Shown here piece by piece: positions 49,284 to 64,000 of a stretch of 64,000 bases of DNA (the stretch's first letter is position 1; every line of letters starts with the position of its first letter). The stretch covers positions 1-64,000 of the forward strand of contig NZ_QPMK01000010.1 in assembly GCF_003344785.1 (NCBI RefSeq), in the 5' to 3' direction. The stretch is from Thalassococcus profundi (GTDB taxonomy: Bacteria; Pseudomonadota; Alphaproteobacteria; Rhodobacterales; Rhodobacteraceae). The notes under the pieces were generated by a model. It was not told the DNA's origin. It saw only the letters and a list, made by a program, of their open reading frames with translations, and did not search any database. Position numbers and translations under genes: made by a program.

Positions 49284-50117
49284 ATGGAACGACGCCCACG
49301 CAGTTTCTACGTGCTCGCTGCCTTCTTCGGCCTGTTCGTGCTGTTCCTTTACGGCCCGATCCTGACCATCGGCATCCTGAGCTTCCAGGGGCCGCAGGGC
49401 GGTCTGACCTTTCCGATGAACGGCGTGTCGCTGCACTGGTTCCGCGACCTCTTCGAGCAGCAGGCGGTTGGCGACATCTGGGGCGCCTTCCGCCGCAGCC
49501 TGGCGTTGGGGCTGATGGTCATGGTCACCACGGTCGTGGTGTCGGTGATGGCGGGGCTGGCGTTCCGCAAGCGCTTTGCCGGGTCGGCGCTGCTGTTCTA
49601 CGCCGCGATCACGTCGCTGGTGATCCCGTCGATCCTGATCTCGCTGGGCGTCGGGCTGATCTTCAACCAGCTGGGGCTCAAGATCCACTGGGCGACATCG
49701 GGCTTCGGATCGCAGCTGACCTGGACCCTGCCCTTCGGCCTGCTGATCATGTTCGCGGTCTTCAACCGGTTCGACAAGAGCTACGAGGAAGCCGCGCGCG
49801 ACCAGGGCGCGACGTCCTGGCAGACGATCCGCCATGTGGTGCTGCCGATCATCGCGCCGTCGCTGATCGGGGTCGCGCTTTTCGGCTTCACGCTGAGCTA
49901 CGACGAATTCGCCCGAACGCTGCTGACCGCGGGCAGCTACAACACGCTGCCGCTGGAGATCTTCGGGATGACCACCAATGTCACCACGCCGGTGATCTAT
50001 GCGCTCGGCACGCTGACGACGCTATTCTCCTTCGCCATCATCGCGGCCTTCCTGCTGGGCCTCTGGATCATGGGCAAGCGGCGCGCGCGGCTGGGGTCGG
50101 ACGCGGGCAAAGCGTAA
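49284..50117 (+). CDS. ABC importer permease, PotC-like
   Basis: A 277-residue inner-membrane protein with six helices (SFYVLAAFFGLFVLFLYGPI at the N terminus and ALGTLTTLFSFAIIAAFLLG near the C terminus). Its EAA loop reads EAARDQGATSWQTIRHVVLP. AAGGAG lies 7-8 bases before the ATG. It is the second channel subunit of the polyamine-type importer. Its TAA stop shares one base with the ATG of the racemase-like gene (TAATG), so translation of the two is coupled. Confidence 0.93.
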   Translation: MERRPRSFYVLAAFFGLFVLFLYGPILTIGILSFQGPQGGLTFPMNGVSLHWFRDLFEQQAVGDIWGAFRRSLALGLMVMVTTVVVSVMAGLAFRKRFAGSALLFYAAITSLVIPSILISLGVGLIFNQLGLKIHWATSGFGSQLTWTLPFGLLIMFAVFNRFDKSYEEAARDQGATSWQTIRHVVLPIIAPSLIGVALFGFTLSYDEFARTLLTAGSYNTLPLEIFGMTTNVTTPVIYALGTLTTLFSFAIIAAFLLGLWIMGKRRARLGSDAGKA

Positions 50118-54635: not shown

Positions 54636-55520
54636 TCAGACCCTGTCGCCCTTCGCGACCTCGTATTTGACCTGACCCCAGGCCAGCAGGGTAAAGATGG
54701 CCGTGCCGCCAATGATATTGCCCATCAGAACCGGCAGGAAGAACTCGAAAATCGCCGCAATGGGGCCAAGTTCGCCGAGCCAGAGCAAAAAGCCCATTTC
54801 CACCGAACCCGCGACGATATGCGGGAAATCTCCGGCGGCGATCAGCCAGGTGAAGACGACGATCACCATGAACGCGTTGCTTTGCGCCGAAGGCATCATC
54901 CACACGATTCCCGCGACCAGCACGCCGGCCGGTATCGCCTTGATGAAGCTCGTCCACGGCCCCATGCCGACAGCGTGATGCGACAGCGACGTGAACGCCT
55001 CGAAAAGATCGGCGCTCAGCACGCCGGTTTTCGCAAGAAAGCCCGCAGCAAGGATTGCGCCCACTGTGTTGGCGGCGAGCACGATGGCCCAGAGCCGCAC
55101 CATCGCCCAGAGACAGCTCAGCGACTGGCGCGACACGACCGGCAGAACCGTGGTGATCGTGTTTTCGGTAAACAGCTGCATCCTGCCAAGGATCACAACG
55201 AGAAACCCGAAGGAGTAGCCAAGATTCTCGATCAGGAAGGTGGACCCCTCGCCGAGGTCCAGATGCGACCGCAGAATGGCTTCGCCCAGGATCGACAGGC
55301 TGATCAGAAGACCCGCGGCGAGGCCCGAATAGATCAGCGACACGTTCGGCCGGTCGAGTTCTTCCTCGCCATCGCGACGGATGGCCTCGTAGATCAGCCG
55401 CGCGCTCATGCGCGTGACGCTGCTGACGGTCTCTTCCTCGGATTTCCGCTGGCTGTCGTTGCCATTTCCGGGCTTGCCCACGGGGTCTTGCCGGTTTTCC
55501 TCCTGCGGAGTGTCCGTCAT
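54636..55520 (-). CDS. Formate/nitrite-transporter (FNT) family membrane protein, YfdC-like
   Basis: A 294-residue protein. The first 60 residues are a long polar cytoplasmic tail, followed by six helices: LIYSGLAAGLLISLSILGEA, YSFGFLVVILGRMQLFTENT, VRLWAIVLAANTVGAILAAG, AIPAGVLVAGIVWMMPSAQS, AFMVIVVFTWLIAAGDFPHI and GPIAAIFEFFLPVLMGNIIG. The QLFTENT and SAQSNAF segments correspond to the FNT re-entrant loops, and the mid-channel His (HIVAGSVE) is present. The YfdC-like branch has unsettled substrates. It lies 46 bases downstream of the HdeD-like gene on the same strand and is probably its operon partner. Confidence 0.85.
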   Translation of the reverse strand: MTDTPQEENRQDPVGKPGNGNDSQRKSEEETVSSVTRMSARLIYEAIRRDGEEELDRPNVSLIYSGLAAGLLISLSILGEAILRSHLDLGEGSTFLIENLGYSFGFLVVILGRMQLFTENTITTVLPVVSRQSLSCLWAMVRLWAIVLAANTVGAILAAGFLAKTGVLSADLFEAFTSLSHHAVGMGPWTSFIKAIPAGVLVAGIVWMMPSAQSNAFMVIVVFTWLIAAGDFPHIVAGSVEMGFLLWLGELGPIAAIFEFFLPVLMGNIIGGTAIFTLLAWGQVKYEVAKGDRV

Positions 55521-55566: not shown

Positions 55567-56214
55567 TCATCCCTCGACCCGGTCGCGCGGTGCGGAACCG
55601 CGCATCAAGGTGTCAGGCCGACGCCCCACGCGGATCGCGGCCGACAGCAGGATCACGCCCCACAACACGAGATCGACACCCAACACCAGCCCGGGCACGA
55701 TCGCGGCGTTGCCGGGCAGGCCGAGAAACAGCAGCACGGCCAACAGCACCGACAAGGCGCCGACGGCGACCATCCAGCCTCCGCCGTCGCTCCACAGCCG
55801 GGCGCCGTAGTAGATGCGCAGAGCGCCCGAGGCTCCGAGGTAGGCGATGATCAAAGTCGTCAGCGCAAGAAGCCCGACCACAGGTTGAAGCAACATCATC
55901 ACGCCCGCGAAAATCGACAGGACAGCCATTGCGAAAGCGGCCGCCATCTCCCAAGCCTGGTGACGTTTGAAGGCCGTCACAAGCCCGACGACCCCGCTCA
56001 CGACCAGCACCCAGCCGACCACGATGGCGGCGGACAGGGAGCCCAGGAACGGCATGACCAGCGCCGCGAGGCCTGCGACGAGGGTGATGATACCGACGAT
56101 CCGCAAAACCCAGCGGTTGCGCATTGCAGTGCGCCCCGCTTCGAAGGAACCTTGATTTGTCGCCGGGTCCGTGACTTCGGAACGCTGGGCGGTGTCCTCG
56201 TAGGTGTCGGCCAT
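55567..56214 (-). CDS. HdeD-like (DUF308) membrane protein
   Basis: A 215-residue protein. A polar N-terminal 32 residues precede six short hydrophobic helices arranged as three pairs: VLRIVGIITLVAGLAALVMP with SAAIVVGWVLVVSGVVGLVT, AAAFAMAVLSIFAGVMMLLQ with LALTTLIIAYLGASGALRIY, and MVAVGALSVLLAVLLFLGLP with LVLGVDLVLWGVILLSAAIR. This is the DUF308/HdeD architecture, linked to acid and general stress in enterics. It is probably the first gene of an operon with the FNT gene. I found no GGAAC/CGTT promoter before it, unlike its neighbours. Confidence 0.85.
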   Translation of the reverse strand: MADTYEDTAQRSEVTDPATNQGSFEAGRTAMRNRWVLRIVGIITLVAGLAALVMPFLGSLSAAIVVGWVLVVSGVVGLVTAFKRHQAWEMAAAFAMAVLSIFAGVMMLLQPVVGLLALTTLIIAYLGASGALRIYYGARLWSDGGGWMVAVGALSVLLAVLLFLGLPGNAAIVPGLVLGVDLVLWGVILLSAAIRVGRRPDTLMRGSAPRDRVEG

Positions 56215-56419: not shown

Positions 56420-56620
56420 TTAGGCTTCGGCAGTGCCCCAGTGCGACACTTCGCGCTCCGCTTCTTCGCGGGTCCGGCCGTATTTTTCCTGAATCTTGCC
56501 GACAAGCCGGTCGTGGCTGCCGTCGATTTCGTTGATATCGTCATCGGTGAGCTTGCCCCATTGGCGCTTTGCTTCACCCCTGATCTGCTTCCATTGACCT
56601 TCGAGCTGATCGCGGTTCAT
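56420..56620 (-). CDS. CsbD-family stress protein
   Basis: A 66-residue, highly charged helical protein: MNRDQLEGQWKQIRGEAKRQ, WGKLTDDDINEIDGSHDRLV, GKIQEKYGRTREEAEREVSH, ending WGTAEA. This is the complete CsbD pattern (QxKGxxKxxWGKLTDDDL type). The ATG at 56620 has a strong AAAGGAG 7 bases upstream, so the longer frame starting at 56872 is rejected. A perfect sigma-EcfG promoter sits about 49 bases before the start. CsbD proteins are general-stress markers of unknown molecular role. Confidence 0.93.
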   Translation of the reverse strand: MNRDQLEGQWKQIRGEAKRQWGKLTDDDINEIDGSHDRLVGKIQEKYGRTREEAEREVSHWGTAEA

Positions 56621-56668: not shown

Positions 56669-56694
56669 AACGCCGGCCGCGCCGAAGCGGTTCC
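56669..56694 (-). promoter_or_regulatory. Sigma-EcfG (general stress) promoter of csbD
   Basis: On the minus strand the sequence reads GGAAC, 17 bases, CGTT, an exact match to the alphaproteobacterial EcfG consensus. The -10 end is 49 bases before the csbD ATG. Confidence 0.8.
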
Positions 56695-56809: not shown

Positions 56810-56835
56810 GGAACCGCCCGTCGTCGCAGTTTGTT
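56810..56835 (+). promoter_or_regulatory. Sigma-EcfG-like promoter of exoD
   Basis: The plus strand reads GGAAC, 17 bases, TGTT, one base from the EcfG consensus. Its end lies 26 bases before the exoD ATG. It faces away from the csbD promoter in the same 241-bp divergent region. Confidence 0.65.
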
Positions 56836-56861: not shown

Positions 56862-57446
56862 ATGAGCGACAATCAGCATCACATTATCTCGGACGTCGTG
56901 CAGGACGTGCGCAACATCTCGCAGGATCGCGACGAGGTCAGCGTCGGGTCGGTGGTGACCAACCTCGGCCAAGTGTCCCAGGCCGGGCTCATGCTGTTAC
57001 CCGCGCTTATCGCCGCGACACCGCTGAGCGGCATACCGGGGCTCACCTCTGTCTGTGGGCTGATGATCGCGATCATCGCGGGGCAGATGGTCTTCGGCCG
57101 AACCAAGCTGTGGTTGCCGCAATGGATCCTGCGCCGCCACGTCGATGCGGACAACCTGCGGGACGCTCTGGACAAATCCGATGGCGCGATCCGTTTTCTG
57201 GACCGGCACACGCACAGACGGTGGCCCGTCTTCGTGCGTCAACCCGGCAGGACGGTGATCAAGCTTGTCTGCCTCATGTGCGGACTGACCATGCCGTTTC
57301 TCGAACTGCTGCCCTTCACCGGCTCGCTGATGGGCGGTGTCGTGGCGCTCCTGTCGATTTCGCTTCTCACCAAAGACGGCCTGTTCGCAATCCTCGGCCT
57401 GTCTCTTCTGGCAATTGCCGGCGGTGTCATTGTCTATTTCCTCTGA
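56862..57446 (+). CDS. exoD: ExoD-family exopolysaccharide-synthesis membrane protein
   Basis: A 194-residue protein. A polar N-terminal segment (HHIISDVVQDVRNISQDRDE, VSVGSVVTNLG) is followed by helices MLLPALIAATPLSGIPGLTS and VCGLMIAIIAGQMVFGRTKL, a cytoplasmic stretch with WLPQWILRRHVDADNLRDAL and RFLDRHTHRRWP, and C-terminal helices from VIKLVCLMCGLTMPFLELLP on. This is the full ExoD pattern; ExoD affects exopolysaccharide and alkaline tolerance in rhizobia. AAGGGA precedes the ATG. It is preceded by a near-consensus sigma-EcfG promoter and converges with trkA after 21 bases. Confidence 0.9.
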   Translation: MSDNQHHIISDVVQDVRNISQDRDEVSVGSVVTNLGQVSQAGLMLLPALIAATPLSGIPGLTSVCGLMIAIIAGQMVFGRTKLWLPQWILRRHVDADNLRDALDKSDGAIRFLDRHTHRRWPVFVRQPGRTVIKLVCLMCGLTMPFLELLPFTGSLMGGVVALLSISLLTKDGLFAILGLSLLAIAGGVIVYFL

Positions 57447-57467: not shown

Positions 57468-58121
57468 TCACGCGTCGGCTCCGAACATCTTGTCCAGCTT
57501 GGCGCGGACATCCGGGATCGCGGCGACCAGCAGCCTGTCGCCATGGGCGAGTGTCGTCTCTGCGCCGGTCTGCGCGGTTTCGTCGTCGCGCAGGCGGGCC
57601 ACGGCGCGGGCGCCCCTGGGCAGATCAATGCCGCCAAGCGTTTCCCCGTCGCAGTCTTCGGGCACGATATAACTGCCGAACTCCAGCCCCTCGGCGCTTT
57701 CGATCTGCGCCCAGACGCGGGAATGGCTCTTGATCGAACGGGAAATCGACCGCGCGACCGTAGCATGCGGCGTCACGATCTCGTCGAAGCCCAGTTCCTC
57801 GCAGACGTCCATCAGTTCCGACCGTCCGATCTGCAGGATCACCCGTTCATAGCCGATGGACCGCCCGACAACCGCCGCGAGGATGTTCACATCGTCGTGG
57901 TTCGTCAGGAGGATCAGCGCATCGGCGCTGTCGCCATAGGCGTCGCGCAGGATCTGCGGCAAAGTCCCGTCACCTTCGATGAAACCGCAGTCAAGCCGCT
58001 CCGACACGCTGTCGAGCTTTTCGCGGGACTGGTCCACCAGCACAACGTCGTGCTGATTCTCCAGCATTTCCCTGGCAAGCGCGAGGCCCAAGCCCGAGGC
58101 GCCGACGATCACGATCCGCAT
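57468..58121 (-). CDS. trkA: TrkA-type potassium-uptake regulatory (RCK) protein, single-RCK form
   Basis: A 217-residue cytoplasmic protein. RCK_N covers residues 1-135: the NAD-binding loop IVIVGASGLGLALAREML, the acidic strand end VVLVDQS, GDGTLPQILRDA and LTNHDDVNILAA. RCK_C covers about 140-217 (FGSYIVPEDCDGETLGGIDL, HGDRLLVAAIPD). It is half the length of E. coli TrkA, which has two such units, so it should work as a dimer or tetramer like KtrA. It starts 3 bases after the stop of trkH and is clearly its gating partner, responding to NAD(H) or nucleotides. Confidence 0.9.
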   Translation of the reverse strand: MRIVIVGASGLGLALAREMLENQHDVVLVDQSREKLDSVSERLDCGFIEGDGTLPQILRDAYGDSADALILLTNHDDVNILAAVVGRSIGYERVILQIGRSELMDVCEELGFDEIVTPHATVARSISRSIKSHSRVWAQIESAEGLEFGSYIVPEDCDGETLGGIDLPRGARAVARLRDDETAQTGAETTLAHGDRLLVAAIPDVRAKLDKMFGADA

Positions 58122-58124
58122 GGT

Positions 58125-59561
58125 TTAACTCCTTTTCCACCAGGTTCCGGGCAGGAACAGCATGATCAGGGCGATGAATTCCAGCCGCCCCAACAGCATC
58201 AGCACGATCAGCGTCCCCTTCAGATGGGCGGCCATGTCGGGACCGGTCAGCCCCTGGCTCAGGCCCACGGTCGACAGCGCCGATGTCACCTCGAAGAGCG
58301 CAGGCAGAGCCGGCGCTCCTGAGGCCAGAAAGACGACCCAGCCGATCATCTGCGCCACGAGATAAAGCGCGATCAGCGTGCCGACGGCGATCACGCGGTC
58401 CGCGGCCACCCGTTCGCCGCCGTCGCGCAGGTACGTGACGGCGCTGGGCGGCACCGACAGGCGCACGAAACTCAGCCGCACGATTTGCATCATGATCACC
58501 AGCCGCCCGACCTTGATGCCGCCGCCGGTGGAACCGATGTCGGCACCGATGAACATGGCGACCAAGATCAGCGGCAAAAGCCCGACGTGGCTCGACACCT
58601 CGTTGGTCGAAAATCCCGCGGTGGAAAAGGCGCTCAGAAAGTTCAGGGCGCCGCGGTAGATCTCTCCGGCATCCGACTGGTTGAGGCCGTAGTCGATCGC
58701 GGCAAAGAGCAGCGTGGCGCCAACCATCAGCCCGAGGGTGGCGCGCAGATGGCTCTTCGCCAGCGCTCCGCGCAGCCCGTCGCGCGGGATCTGGACGTAA
58801 GCCATGAGCGACACGGCGGCGAGCACACAGATCCCGAGCACGACCCCTTGCGCCAGCGGCGAATAGCTGGACAGGCTGTCGCCGCGCGGGGTGAACCCGC
58901 CGGTCGACACCGCCGACAGCGCAACGCTCACGGCTTCCCACCAGTTCGGCAGGACCAGGAGGCAGGCAATCACCGCGAGAAGGCTTAGCGCCGCGTAGAC
59001 CCGGAGCACTAGGCGCGCCTGTGCCCGCAACGACACATTGTTGTCCCGTTCTGCAAAGCTGCTGCCGCCAATGGCCAGCGACGCGCCGGGCGATCCGGCA
59101 AAGATCGCAAGCCCGGCAAAGGCGATGGCAAAGCCGCCGCACCACTGGATCCAGCCGCGCAGCAAATGCCCCGCGACCGGCCAATTCTCGGTATCCTCGG
59201 CCACGCTGAGCCCGGTCGACGTGATCCCCGACACCGCTTCGAACAGCGCATGGAGGGGCGTCATGCCAAGCATGACGAAGGGGGGCGTGACAAGCAGGCT
59301 CGCGGCGAGGAAGATCAGCGCAAAGGTGACGAGCGCCTCGATCTGCCGCAAATCGTCTGGGAAATCGCTGTTGCGATGATAGATCATCAGGACCACCAAG
59401 GCCGCAATCTGCGCCACGAAAGACAGACCCAAAGCGTGCTCGCCTGTCGCGAAGGCAACGAAGCATGGCGGCACCACGACGGCCAGGAAGACCGGAGACT
59501 GCTGCGCCAGAGCTTGCAGGACGGCATTCGGACGCGCCAGCAGCGCTGTCGTGGCTGTCAT
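58125..59561 (-). CDS. trkH: TrkH-family potassium uptake channel protein
   Basis: A 478-residue inner-membrane protein. All four selectivity-filter loops are visible: SGITSTGLS, SAVSTGGFT, SAFSTAGFS and SALSTVGLS, each followed by a pore helix, in the four-fold TM-P-TM arrangement of TrkH/KtrB. Near the end LIVLMLLGRLEFIALIMLFL is a typical last helix. It makes the K+ pathway and pairs with the RCK protein 3 bases downstream. A perfect sigma-EcfG promoter lies 36 bases before its start, so potassium uptake here is likely part of the general stress response. Confidence 0.95.
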   Translation of the reverse strand: MTATTALLARPNAVLQALAQQSPVFLAVVVPPCFVAFATGEHALGLSFVAQIAALVVLMIYHRNSDFPDDLRQIEALVTFALIFLAASLLVTPPFVMLGMTPLHALFEAVSGITSTGLSVAEDTENWPVAGHLLRGWIQWCGGFAIAFAGLAIFAGSPGASLAIGGSSFAERDNNVSLRAQARLVLRVYAALSLLAVIACLLVLPNWWEAVSVALSAVSTGGFTPRGDSLSSYSPLAQGVVLGICVLAAVSLMAYVQIPRDGLRGALAKSHLRATLGLMVGATLLFAAIDYGLNQSDAGEIYRGALNFLSAFSTAGFSTNEVSSHVGLLPLILVAMFIGADIGSTGGGIKVGRLVIMMQIVRLSFVRLSVPPSAVTYLRDGGERVAADRVIAVGTLIALYLVAQMIGWVVFLASGAPALPALFEVTSALSTVGLSQGLTGPDMAAHLKGTLIVLMLLGRLEFIALIMLFLPGTWWKRS

Positions 59562-59597
59562 GGCGAGGGCCGTTCAAAGTGGGCACACATGGCTTTT

Positions 59598-59623
59598 AAC
59601 GCAGCGGCAACGGGCGAGGTTCC
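59598..59623 (-). promoter_or_regulatory. Sigma-EcfG (general stress) promoter of trkH-trkA
   Basis: On the minus strand the sequence reads GGAAC, 17 bases, CGTT, an exact EcfG consensus match with the same spacing as the csbD promoter. It ends 36 bases before the trkH ATG. Confidence 0.8.
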
Positions 59624-60017: not shown

Positions 60018-60043
60018 GGAACTTCCCGGCGCGGGGGCGCATT
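60018..60043 (+). promoter_or_regulatory. Possible sigma-EcfG-like promoter of the paoABC-like operon
   Basis: GGAAC, 17 bases, CATT, one base from the CGTT consensus, ends 29 bases before the first gene of the operon. The mismatch makes this tentative. Confidence 0.35.
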
Positions 60044-60072: not shown

Positions 60073-60600
60073 ATGATCATCACGCTCACGGTCAACGGAC
60101 GCCGGACAGAGCTGGACCTCGATCCCCGCACCACGTTGCTGGACGCGCTGCGGCATCACCTTGCGCTGACGGGCACCAAGAAGGGCTGCGATCACGGCCA
60201 GTGCGGCGCCTGCACCCTGCTCGTCAACGGACGGCGCATCAATTCCTGCCTGGCCCTGGCCGCGAGCCATGACGGCGACGAGATCACCACGATCGAGGGT
60301 CTGGGCAAGCCGGAGGCGATGTCGGATTTGCAGGCGGCATTCGTCCAGCATGACGGTTACCAGTGCGGCTATTGCACGCCGGGCCAGATCATGTCGGCCG
60401 AGGCGATGCTGGCCGAGGTCGCCGAGGGCTGGCCCTCCTACGTGACCCGCGCGCTCGACGACGACCCGACGCTGACGGACGAGGAAATGGCCGAGCGCAT
60501 GTCGGGCAACCTCTGCCGCTGTTCGGCCTATCCCCGCATCCGCCAGGCGATCGGCGCCGTGCGCGACGCCCGCGCCAGCCGCACGGAGGCCGCGGAATGA
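60073..60600 (+). CDS. paoA: [2Fe-2S] subunit of a molybdenum aldehyde/xanthine oxidoreductase, PaoA-like
   Basis: 175 residues from the ATG at 60073, with GGAG 7 bases before. The N-terminal plant-ferredoxin domain carries [15 protein letters not shown] and, downstream, a further Cys in INSCLALAA (first cluster). The helical domain carries [11 protein letters not shown] and [12 protein letters not shown] (second cluster), all cysteines intact. E. coli PaoA is longer because of a Tat signal; here the protein begins directly at [12 protein letters not shown] and upstream codons show no twin-arginine motif, so this enzyme is probably cytoplasmic. It passes electrons between the Mo and FAD subunits. 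Its stop overlaps the next start (ATGA). Confidence 0.9.
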
Positions 60601-61577
60601 GACCTTTCGATTATTCACGCGCCGATGGCGCACCCGATGCCGCTGCCAAGGCCGCCCAAGGGGCCACGATCCTCGCGGGCGGCACCAACCTTCTGGACCT
60701 GATGAAGCTCGAGGTCATGGCGCCCGAGGCGGTGGTGGACATTTCGCGGCTGGACCTGACCGGGATCACGCCGACCGAGGACGGCGGCCTGCGGATCGGG
60801 GCGTTGGTGACCAATACCGATCTTGCCAACGACAGGACGGTGCGCACGCAGTATCCGGTTCTCAGCCGCGCCTTGCTGTCCGGTGCCACCGTGCAGCTGC
60901 GAAACAAGGCGACGACCGGCGGCAACCTTCTGCAACGCACCCGTTGCCCGTATTTCTATGACACGGGTGCTGCCTGCAACAAACGCGATCCGGGATCGGG
61001 CTGCGCCGCAATGACAGGCTGCAATCGTATACTCGCGGTGCTGGGCGGGTCGGACCACTGCATCGCCACCCACCCCTCCGACATGGCCGTCGCGATGCGG
61101 GCGCTTCGCGCTCGGGTGGCGCTGGAAAGTCCGGAGGGCACGCGCGAGATCGCTCTGGCCGATCTGCACGTTCTGCCCGGCGACACGCCCGAGGTCGAAA
61201 CCGTCCTCCAGCCGGGCGAGGTCATCACATCGGTGATCCTGCCCCCCGCGCCGCCGGGACGCCAAGCCTACGTCAAGATCCGCGACCGTGCGTCCTACGC
61301 CTTCGCGCTGGTCTCGGTCGCCGGGATCGTCGCGATCGAGGACGGTCGCATCACCGAAGCCGCCCTCGCCTTCGGCGGGCTGGCCCCGAAACCCTGGCGC
61401 GACCCCGAGGTCGAAGCGGCCCTGATCGGCCAACCGGCCGGTCCCGCCGCCGCAGAGGCGGCCGCCGACGTGCTTCTCGCGGATGCGAAGGGCCACGGCG
61501 GCAACGATTTCAAGATCCCGCTGGCACGGCGGACACTCAAACGCGCCCTGCGCGAACTCACGGAGGCCACGTCGTGA
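60597..61577 (+). CDS. paoB: FAD-binding subunit with extra Fe-S cysteines, PaoB-like
   Basis: 326 residues from the ATG overlapping the previous stop. The FAD domain of the xanthine-dehydrogenase medium-subunit type has [15 protein letters not shown] near the N terminus and [12 protein letters not shown]. Right after this come Cys117, Cys127, Cys136 and Cys142 ([22 protein letters not shown]) and Cys155 ([10 protein letters not shown]). This cysteine-rich insert is typical of PaoB, which binds a [4Fe-4S] cluster beside FAD, and distinguishes the family from ordinary xanthine dehydrogenases. The C-terminal CODH flavoprotein domain ends near [10 protein letters not shown]. Confidence 0.9.
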
Positions 61578-63805
61578 TGGATGGACAGCCGCAATCGAAA
61601 GACTTTTCCGTGAAATTCACCATGGACGAGGCGCAGCCGCGCGTTCTGGACCGCATGGCTCAGGGCCTTCTGGGCACCGCCATGGACCGGCCCGAAGGGC
61701 GGATGAAAGTCACCGGCACCGCACCCTACGCGGCAGAATATCGGCGCGAGGGTCTCGTGCACGGCATGCTGGTGCGTTCGACGATCACCAGGGGCCGGGT
61801 CACGGGGATCGACACCGAAAAGGTGCAGTCCATGGACGGCGTAATTGCGGTCATGACCGGCGGGCCGCTGGTGCGGAACCCGGCGCAGGGCACCGCCCAC
61901 GAGGCACCCGCGCAGAGCCTGCCGGAGGTGTTCTACGTGGGACAGCCGGTGGCGCTCGTGGTCGCCGAGAGCTTTGAACAGGCACGCCATGCAGCGCAGG
62001 CGCTGACCGTCACCTATGACCGCGCGGACGGCGCGGATGTCGACCCGGCCACCGCGTCGGACACCGAGACGCCCGAGGACGATGTGCTGTCGCAAGGCGA
62101 CATCGACACGGCGATGAAGGAGGCGGCCTTCGCCGTCGACACTCGCTACACCACCCCGCCGCACAGTTCCGCCGCGATGGAGCCGCATGCCTCGGTTGCC
62201 AGTTGGACCGACGGGCGGCTGGAGCTTCACGGTTCCTACCAGATGCTGCGCCACAACGTCGCCGAACTGGCCGATGCGCTGGGGGTCGACGAGGCCGATG
62301 TGCGCATCCATTCGCCCTACGTCGGCGGCGGGTTCGGGGCCAAGCTGGGCATCGCGCCCGAAGCGGTGGCGGCGGCCCATGCGGCGCGCGAGCTGGGGCG
62401 TCCCGTCTCGGTCGTCCTGACCCGCCCGCAGGTCTTCGAGATGACAATGCGGCGATCCGAGACCACACAACGCCTGCGCCTTGGCTCCGACGCCGAGGGG
62501 CGTCTGACGGCGCTTGGTCACGAAGATTGGGTATCGAACCTGCCGGGCGAAGCCTTTGCCGAACCCACCGCTCAGGGCACGCATTTCCTCTATGGCGGCG
62601 ACAACCGCTACTTCGCGCAGACGCTGGCCCGCGTGCACCGCCCCTGTGCCGGATCGGTCCGCGCGCCGGGTGAGGCAGTGGGCATGATCGCGCTGGAATG
62701 CGCCATGGACGAACTGGCCGAGGCCACTGGCATCGACCCCATCGACCTGCGCCTGCGCAACCTGCCCGAGACGCACCCGGAAAACGGCCTGCCCTATTCC
62801 GAGCGCGGGCTTGGGGACTGCTTGCGCGACGGTGCCGCCAAGTTCGGCTGGGACACCCGCAAGCCTGCCGGCACACGGTTGGAAGGCGACTGGTGGGTCG
62901 GCATGGGCGTGGCCTCTGCCGTGCGAGTCAATGCGCTGATGAATTCCACCGCTCGGGTCACGCTGAACCCCGACGGGACGGCGCTTTGCGAAACCGACAT
63001 GACCGACATCGGTACCGGCAGTTACGCGATCCTGACTCAGATCGTGGGCGAGATGCTGGGACTCGACGCGAGCCAAATCGAGGTGCGGCTGGGCGACAGC
63101 GACCTGCCGAAATCCTCGGGCTCGGGCGGATCCTGGGGCGCGCAGTCCTGCGGCTCGGCCGTGTTCCTCGCGGCCCAGGGCATCCGCAAGGCATTGGCGG
63201 AAAAGCTGGGCGTTGCCGCGGACGATCTGACCCTGAAAGACGGCACCGTGACGTCCGGCAACGTGCAGCACGGCTTTGCCGACCTGATCGACTCGCCGCT
63301 GACCTGCGAAGGCACGCTCAATCCGGGCGACACCGCCGATGCGTTTTCCATCGCGGGCTACGGCGCGCATTTCGCCGAGGTCGGCGTGCACCGCGACACC
63401 GGCGAGGTGAGGGTGCGCCGGATGCTCGGCGTCTTTTCCATCGGCCGTGTGCTGAACGAAAAGACCGCCAGCAGCCAGTGCCATGGTGGCATGATCTGGG
63501 GGATCGGCTCTGCCCTGACCGAAGAGATCATGCACGACCCTTCGGATGGGCGGATCGTCAACCACAACCTTGCCGAATATCACCTGCCCGTCAGCCTCGA
63601 CGTGCCGGATCTGGACGTCGTGCTGCTGGAAGACACCCGCGACGACGAGGCCAACCCGATCCAGGCCAAGGGGATCGGAGAGCTGGGCATCGCCGGCGCC
63701 GCCGGGGCCATCGGCAACGCCATCTACAACGCTTGCGGCGTCCGCGTCCGGGATTTCCCGGCCACCCCCGACAAGATCTTTCCGCATCTGCCGGAAACCG
63801 ACTGA
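61574..63805 (+). CDS. paoC: Molybdopterin-binding catalytic subunit, PaoC-like aldehyde oxidoreductase
   Basis: 743 residues from GTG at 61574, with GGAG 8 bases before; an adjacent ATG at 61577 is an equal alternative. Domains: aldehyde-oxidase a/b hammerhead at about 35-145 ([20 protein letters not shown]), then two molybdopterin-binding halves with [11 protein letters not shown] (about 250), [14 protein letters not shown] (about 360) and [15 protein letters not shown]. The catalytic Glu is in [10 protein letters not shown] near residue 703. Length matches E. coli PaoC (about 730). Such enzymes oxidise aromatic and aliphatic aldehydes to acids. Maturation would need a MoCo-cytosine chaperone that is not in this window. 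Confidence 0.92.
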
Positions 63806-63821
63806 ATCAAGGAGACACGTC

Positions 63822-64000
63822 ATGTCCGACAAACCGAAACTCACATCCACTTCTGGTGCGCCCTACCCAAGCAACGCCCATTCCAAAACCGCCGGAACCC
63901 GCGGTCCGTTGCTGATGGAGGATCACCAGCTGCTGGAAAAGCTGGCGCACCAGAACCGCGAACGCATCCCCGAGCGCGTGGTCCATGCCAAGGGCTGGGG
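63822..64000 (+). CDS. katA: Catalase, N-terminal part (cut by the window edge)
   Basis: The first 59 full codons begin [20 protein letters not shown], then [20 protein letters not shown] and [20 protein letters not shown]. The GPLLMED and [16 protein letters not shown] segments are the hallmark N terminus of small-subunit haem catalases. The HAKG His is the distal haem-pocket residue. AAGGAGA lies 7 bases before the ATG, and the gene starts 16 bases after the paoC stop, so it is probably co-transcribed with the aldehyde oxidoreductase and could remove the peroxide that enzyme may release. The rest is outside the window. Confidence 0.93.

Follow-up and report, generated by a model that had tools for sequence, protein, structure and literature searches.

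Within the window, by which is meant the whole 64 kb stretch of DNA analysed here, two adjacent genes on the minus strand appear to encode a potassium uptake system: trkH (58125..59561), whose 478 aa product is a predicted K+ uptake membrane subunit matching PF02386 with an E value of 1.3e-30, and trkA (57468..58121), which begins 3 nt after trkH and encodes the gating subunit, a protein of 217 aa comprising a single N and a single C domain (PF02254 and PF02080). A score of 106.8 bits against PF02386, for which the cut-off is 27, places the first protein within the TrkH family; its nearest solved chains are the TrkH entries 3pjz and 4j9u (E about 4e-21), and four glycine-bearing, filter-like motifs, which would form the filter, are visible in its sequence. 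It does not qualify as an equivalog of the E. coli-type TrkH, since it reaches 90.8 bits against NF008020 where the cut-off is 866; TrkA likewise falls below its NCBIfam cut-off, and the solved chains that match it best are TrkA chains of 458-461 residues. From these similarities we infer that the predicted TrkH-TrkA pair transports K+. Because the genome (4.78 Mb in 94 contigs) contains three other TrkH genes (PF02386), the trkH-trkA operon (termed here trkHA) constitutes an addition to them.

Upstream of this operon lies a predicted sigma-EcfG promoter (59598..59623, minus strand) of the form GGAAC-N17-CGTT; the minus-strand letters are GGAACCTCGCCCGTTGCCGCTGCGTT, and a spacer of 36 nt (59562-59597) separates them from the trkH ATG at 59561. 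For Sphingomonas melonis Fr1 the EcfG motif is given as GGAAC-N17-20-GTT, with boxes concentrated in the 100 bp before the start (PMC6599016). Judged by that description, the site before trkH has both a GGAAC -35 element and a GTT-containing -10 element at the usual spacing, and it lies within the roughly 100 bp upstream of a start over which such boxes are enriched (PMC6599016). The original prediction of an exact sigma-EcfG consensus, set 36 bases ahead of the trkH-trkA operon, was correct as to sequence and spacing, and Pfam confirms the identity of both genes.

This site is one member of a tight cluster. A loose form of the pattern, GGAA[CT]-N16-18-[GA]TT, occurs exactly four times within contig bases 50001-70000, and all four occurrences lie between 56669 and 60043 (that is, within 3.4 kb) and 26-48 nt before start codons, namely those of csbD, exoD, trkH and an oxidoreductase operon. 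On the minus strand, a predicted sigma-EcfG promoter (56669..56694, GGAAC-N17-CGTT) stands 48 nt before the ATG of a gene for a CsbD-like small protein (56420..56620; PF05532, E 4.5e-19), which is followed by genes for an HdeD-like (DUF308) membrane protein (55567..56214; PF03729, below the NF007577 cut-off) and for a formate/nitrite-transporter family protein (FNT; 54636..55520; PF01226, E 2.5e-47), both also on the minus strand; the loose-pattern scan of 50001-70000 found no box belonging to the HdeD-like gene itself. On the plus strand, a second predicted promoter (56810..56835, GGAAC-N17-TGTT) stands 26 nt before the ATG of a gene for an ExoD-like membrane protein (56862..57446; PF06055, E 8.5e-44), and a weaker one (60018..60043, GGAAC-N17-CATT) stands 29 nt before the oxidoreductase operon. 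The latter encodes the coxS-like 2Fe-2S subunit of a molybdenum hydroxylase (60073..60600; PF01799 and PF00111) and, for the same enzyme, the FAD subunit and the molybdopterin subunit (60597-61577 and 61574-63805; PF00941, PF02738 and PF20256). Beginning 16 nt after these genes, again on the plus strand, is a catalase gene (63822..64000), which leaves the window and runs to contig base 65336, its continuation (L035:3-1337) matching PF00199 with an E value of 1.8e-150.

Considered as an isolated match, the box before trkH is not significant. The pattern GGAAC-N15-18-GTT occurs 7 times in the window as compared with a mean of 4.85 in shuffled sequence (at least 7 in 22 of 100 shuffles), and the strict form occurs 84 times genome-wide as compared with 70 for a reversed control pattern; motif counting alone was accordingly rejected as evidence, counts being near control in both window and genome. 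Loose sites number 14 in the whole window. One strict match (49419-49443, minus strand) falls inside an ORF (49284-50117) that resembles a transporter permease, and it is likely due to chance. Scoring with a weight matrix derived from 13 sites at regulator promoters gave the window a p value of 0.023 against random stretches of the retrieved loci; this was set aside as the main test because that null is drawn from loci which themselves hold such boxes. The significance of the box derives instead from its position, from its clustering with three more promoter-placed boxes, from its conservation before related trkHA operons and from the rarity of such boxes before other trkH genes.

The genome encodes EcfG, NepR and PhyR, the regulators of the general stress response (GSR). 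NepR is represented by a single match over the Pfam cut-off (which is below the NCBIfam equivalog cut-off, 19.7 versus 100); the same locus encodes PhyR (NF006623, 351 bits versus a cut-off of 240), an ECF sigma factor, EcfG, directly after nepR (NF009198, 330 bits versus 270) and a PhyK-like kinase with HisKA_2/HWE domains, whose 212.8 bits lie under the equivalog cut-off of 750. The regulators themselves have promoter boxes of this kind: GGAAC-N16-CGTT at 33 nt from phyR, and GGAAC-N18-GTT about 63 nt ahead of nepR. Across eight loci of relatives, a loose box within 300 nt precedes 5 of 5 phyR and 4 of 7 nepR genes, the nepR of three relatives being without a loose box over that distance.

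Related operons were collected by searching for this type of trkH at E 1e-60, which identified 13 positive genomes among 295 of the family, and by an order-level search at the same threshold, in which 17 of 390 genomes carried the type; all 17 bear the label of the same family, and some of them are also in the 295-genome set. With two named loci added, one from a Rhodobacteraceae MAG (72% identity) and one from Roseovarius (63%), the total is 27 trkHA loci including the window; trkA adjoins trkH in all 26 of the others. Start positions of trkH in relatives were estimated from tblastn, and the 200 nt upstream were scanned. Over that distance a strict box was found at 10, a medium box at 16 and a loose box at 18 of the 27 loci, whereas dinucleotide shuffles of the 27 upstream stretches gave means of 0.04, 0.25 and 0.79, with maxima of 1, 2 and 4, respectively. 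On the opposite strand, the same stretches show a strict box at 8, a medium box at 11 and a loose box at 12 of the 27 loci; 7 of these 12 loose boxes face the start of a divergent gene, either FNT (L068, L073, L076 and L077) or exoD (L033, L062 and L074), and look like one half of back-to-back promoters, while the other 5 are unassigned. One related trkH (G537:C22:44983-46398, loci L053 and L078) is preceded by a strict EcfG-like box but contains a single TAG stop in its frame, and is either a decayed copy or affected by a sequencing error.

As a control, the other trkH genes (PF02386, n = 62) were taken from the 25 trkHA genomes and from G067, the one genome of the same genus in the set. A strict box precedes 1, a medium box 1 and a loose box 2 of these 62. 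The check proposed with the original idea, namely whether related genomes also have the motif ahead of trkH, gave a positive outcome, with a loose box before 18 of 27 trkHA operons versus 2 of 62 other trkH genes. The control was assembled in two batches, with a loose box in 0 of 30 genes of the first and in 2 of 32 of the second (one of them strict), and its growth from 0/30 to 2/62 leaves the odds of our reading unchanged. One trkH-like gene outside the studied type (L125; G065:C8, 77717-78895, minus strand) has a strict EcfG-like box ahead of it. By BLASTP, 29 genes of the later batch match the window TrkH at E 1e-3, with about 25-37% identity. In a tree of 40 TrkH sequences that includes 12 of the 62 others, those 12 fall into two groups apart from the studied type; all three multi-member branches of that type have boxes, and a branch consisting of L085 alone does not, the deepest forks being open, such that the type is not established as a single clade. 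A class-level search (385 genomes, E 1e-40) found, besides the window's own locus, one locus outside the order (G613, 35% identity), which was kept apart from the 27 and is without a box. In G067 there was no match to the trkH type at E 1e-60 and no match to exoD at E 1e-10, the latter in a search run without a positive control.

Nine of the 27 loci have no box within 200 nt of trkH. In a wider inspection, undertaken after these misses had been seen, five of the nine were found to have a box before a co-directional upstream gene, and, because some loose sites arise by chance at such range, these count as no more than supporting. At three of the five (L082, L083 and L084) the upstream gene is mscS, for a mechanosensitive channel (MscS by Pfam), which lies directly upstream of trkH-trkA and in the same direction, so that the three genes form an mscS-trkH-trkA string. 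The corresponding coordinates are L082:10899-11798, L083:8298-9197 and L084:10967-11869; in all three, 8 nt separate the end of the box from the first ATG of mscS, a gap that would suggest either that the transcript is leaderless or that translation starts at a later codon. At L071 a PRC-barrel gene has the box at a distance of 38 nt, and at L072 a small ORF with no Pfam match has it at 63 nt. The remaining four loci (L062, L063, L075 and L085) have no assignable box even after the wider upstream inspection. The FNT gene at one of them (L075:893-1677) appears as two adjacent tblastn pieces, a possible frameshift.

The operon is associated with GSR genes both by co-occurrence across genomes and by proximity. 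All 13 family genomes with trkHA are NepR-positive, as compared with 139 of 295 overall (Fisher p 4e-5); conversely, trkHA occurs in only 13 of those 139 NepR-positive genomes, and is therefore optional. Within stretches of 12-20 kb around trkHA, ecfG, nepR or phyR is present at 9 of 26 loci, a count that leans upward because the positions of nepR were known when five of the stretches were chosen; on the assumption of 1.1 nepR per 4.2 Mb, the expectation for these stretches is about 0.13 nepR. The same stretches around the other trkHA operons contain an FNT homologue in 13 of 26 cases and exoD in 9 of 26, and at L032 the gene order is trkH, trkA, exoD, phyR, nepR, ecfG, kinase. Two NepR matches each occur in G022, G037, G046, G047, G221, G253, G277 and further family genomes, one of the two being close to trkHA in G277 (about 1 kb) and in G221 (about 10 kb); such pairs, some of them near trkHA, suggest duplicated GSR modules.

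The further suggestion of the original prediction, that the general stress response includes K+ uptake, is supported by the conserved box, by the regulators encoded in the genome and by their co-location with trkHA. We consider it very probable that the box before trkH, given its observed placement and clustering and its recurrence before this trkH type, is a sigma-EcfG promoter that drives accessory K+ uptake at times of stress, with osmotic stress as the most likely occasion. By analogy with known GSR systems, stress would cause a PhyK-type kinase to phosphorylate PhyR, which in turn would take NepR off EcfG. RNA polymerase carrying EcfG would then transcribe trkH-trkA from a putative start about 30 nt upstream of trkH, presumably after binding the box itself; csbD and exoD would be transcribed by EcfG in the same response, and the cox-like and catalase genes of the island probably would be as well. 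The accessory Trk-type system would thereby raise K+ uptake beside the three other TrkH genes, most likely at an early stage of adapting to osmotic stress, the presumed stimulus. More generally, these sequence patterns suggest that K+ uptake forms part of the GSR in these bacteria, perhaps as a protection against salt shock. A broader proposal, which we regard as somewhat more probable than not, is that the accessory TrkH-TrkA, which is apart from the other TrkH genes, represents a dedicated but optional ionic arm of the GSR, one that travels with FNT, exoD and the regulators, often through back-to-back EcfG promoters, and that in some lineages takes the form of an mscS-trkH-trkA turgor operon.

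An osmotic purpose may be argued best from the three relatives with a box before mscS, and also from the Caulobacter precedent, where sigma-T (an EcfG-type sigma factor) is reported to be important for induction of kdp in osmotic stress (PMC8552747). The same two points tell against the most serious alternative, namely that the EcfG promoter is real but that K+ is taken up to stabilise pH, membrane potential or ion balance in general while cells are stressed and not growing; this alternative nevertheless deserves an appreciable, though less than even, probability. The neighbouring genes are of mixed stress type (catalase, CsbD, HdeD-like and FNT), with no osmolyte genes among them. For R. sphaeroides, PhyR is reported to have a role in membrane stress, with no significant impairment of a phyR mutant under osmotic stress (PMC5830050, 2018). 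In the tests quoted from PMC8552747, growth of a Caulobacter kdpA mutant was affected only when K+ was low, and no phenotype was seen with salt, sucrose, acid or cold.

Returning to the reading of the box as an EcfG promoter, the identity of the sigma factor may also be questioned. GGAAC-like -35 elements are known from several ECF groups. With EcfG as the only query, the genome yielded one close EcfG and, at 28% and 25% identity, two further sigma homologues that are more distant; that another ECF factor with a similar -35, rather than EcfG, reads the box before trkH is improbable, inasmuch as the same kind of box stands at this genome's phyR and nepR promoters and trkHA both co-occurs and co-locates with GSR regulators. 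A chance match in a GC-rich genome, as the near-control motif counts taken alone would allow, is scarcely credible in view of the position of the box, the four-box cluster and the contrast between trkHA operons and other trkH genes.

If the EcfG reading is correct, ion uptake would stand alongside chemical and structural protection in the stress programme of Alphaproteobacteria, and would offer a clear reporter promoter and phenotype in a group for which PMC5830050, published in 2018, states that no earlier study had examined PhyR in any of the Rhodobacterales. The analysis also illustrates that, in a GC-rich genome, comparison between genomes identifies EcfG targets better than do motif counts. 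Within the open-licence literature on EcfG, PhyR or the GSR in connection with Trk or potassium, no Trk operon under EcfG-type control was found. The main text of the S. melonis study (PMC6599016) mentions neither Trk nor potassium, and the same is true of the main text of a Bradyrhizobium study that attributes osmotolerance to EcfG-controlled trehalose synthesis (PMC8092242).

Compared with known systems, the locus resembles the PhyR-NepR-EcfG regulons of other Alphaproteobacteria in having a GGAAC...GTT box within 100 bp of a start and, in the same genome, the regulators together with boxed phyR and nepR promoters; it differs in that a Trk operon lies inside the island. In S. melonis Fr1, the list of top EcfG-dependent genes contains homologues of coxL/M/S (PMC6599016); here the cox-like genes have the weaker box. 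With regard to the TrkH-TrkA and KtrB-KtrA systems, the transporter belongs to the TrkH family and its best solved matches are TrkH and TrkA chains, but its TrkA, at 217 aa, is KtrA-sized rather than the length of those best-matching chains. A functional parallel is Caulobacter, in which an EcfG-type sigma factor is reported to switch on K+ uptake genes, the kdp operon, under osmotic stress (PMC8552747); Kdp, however, is a high-affinity ATPase, whereas here the predicted target is an accessory TrkH-TrkA in another bacterial group. Control of K+ uptake genes by an EcfG-type factor therefore has a precedent in Caulobacter kdp; for the Trk operon predicted here in such a role, none was found among the open-licence papers searched.
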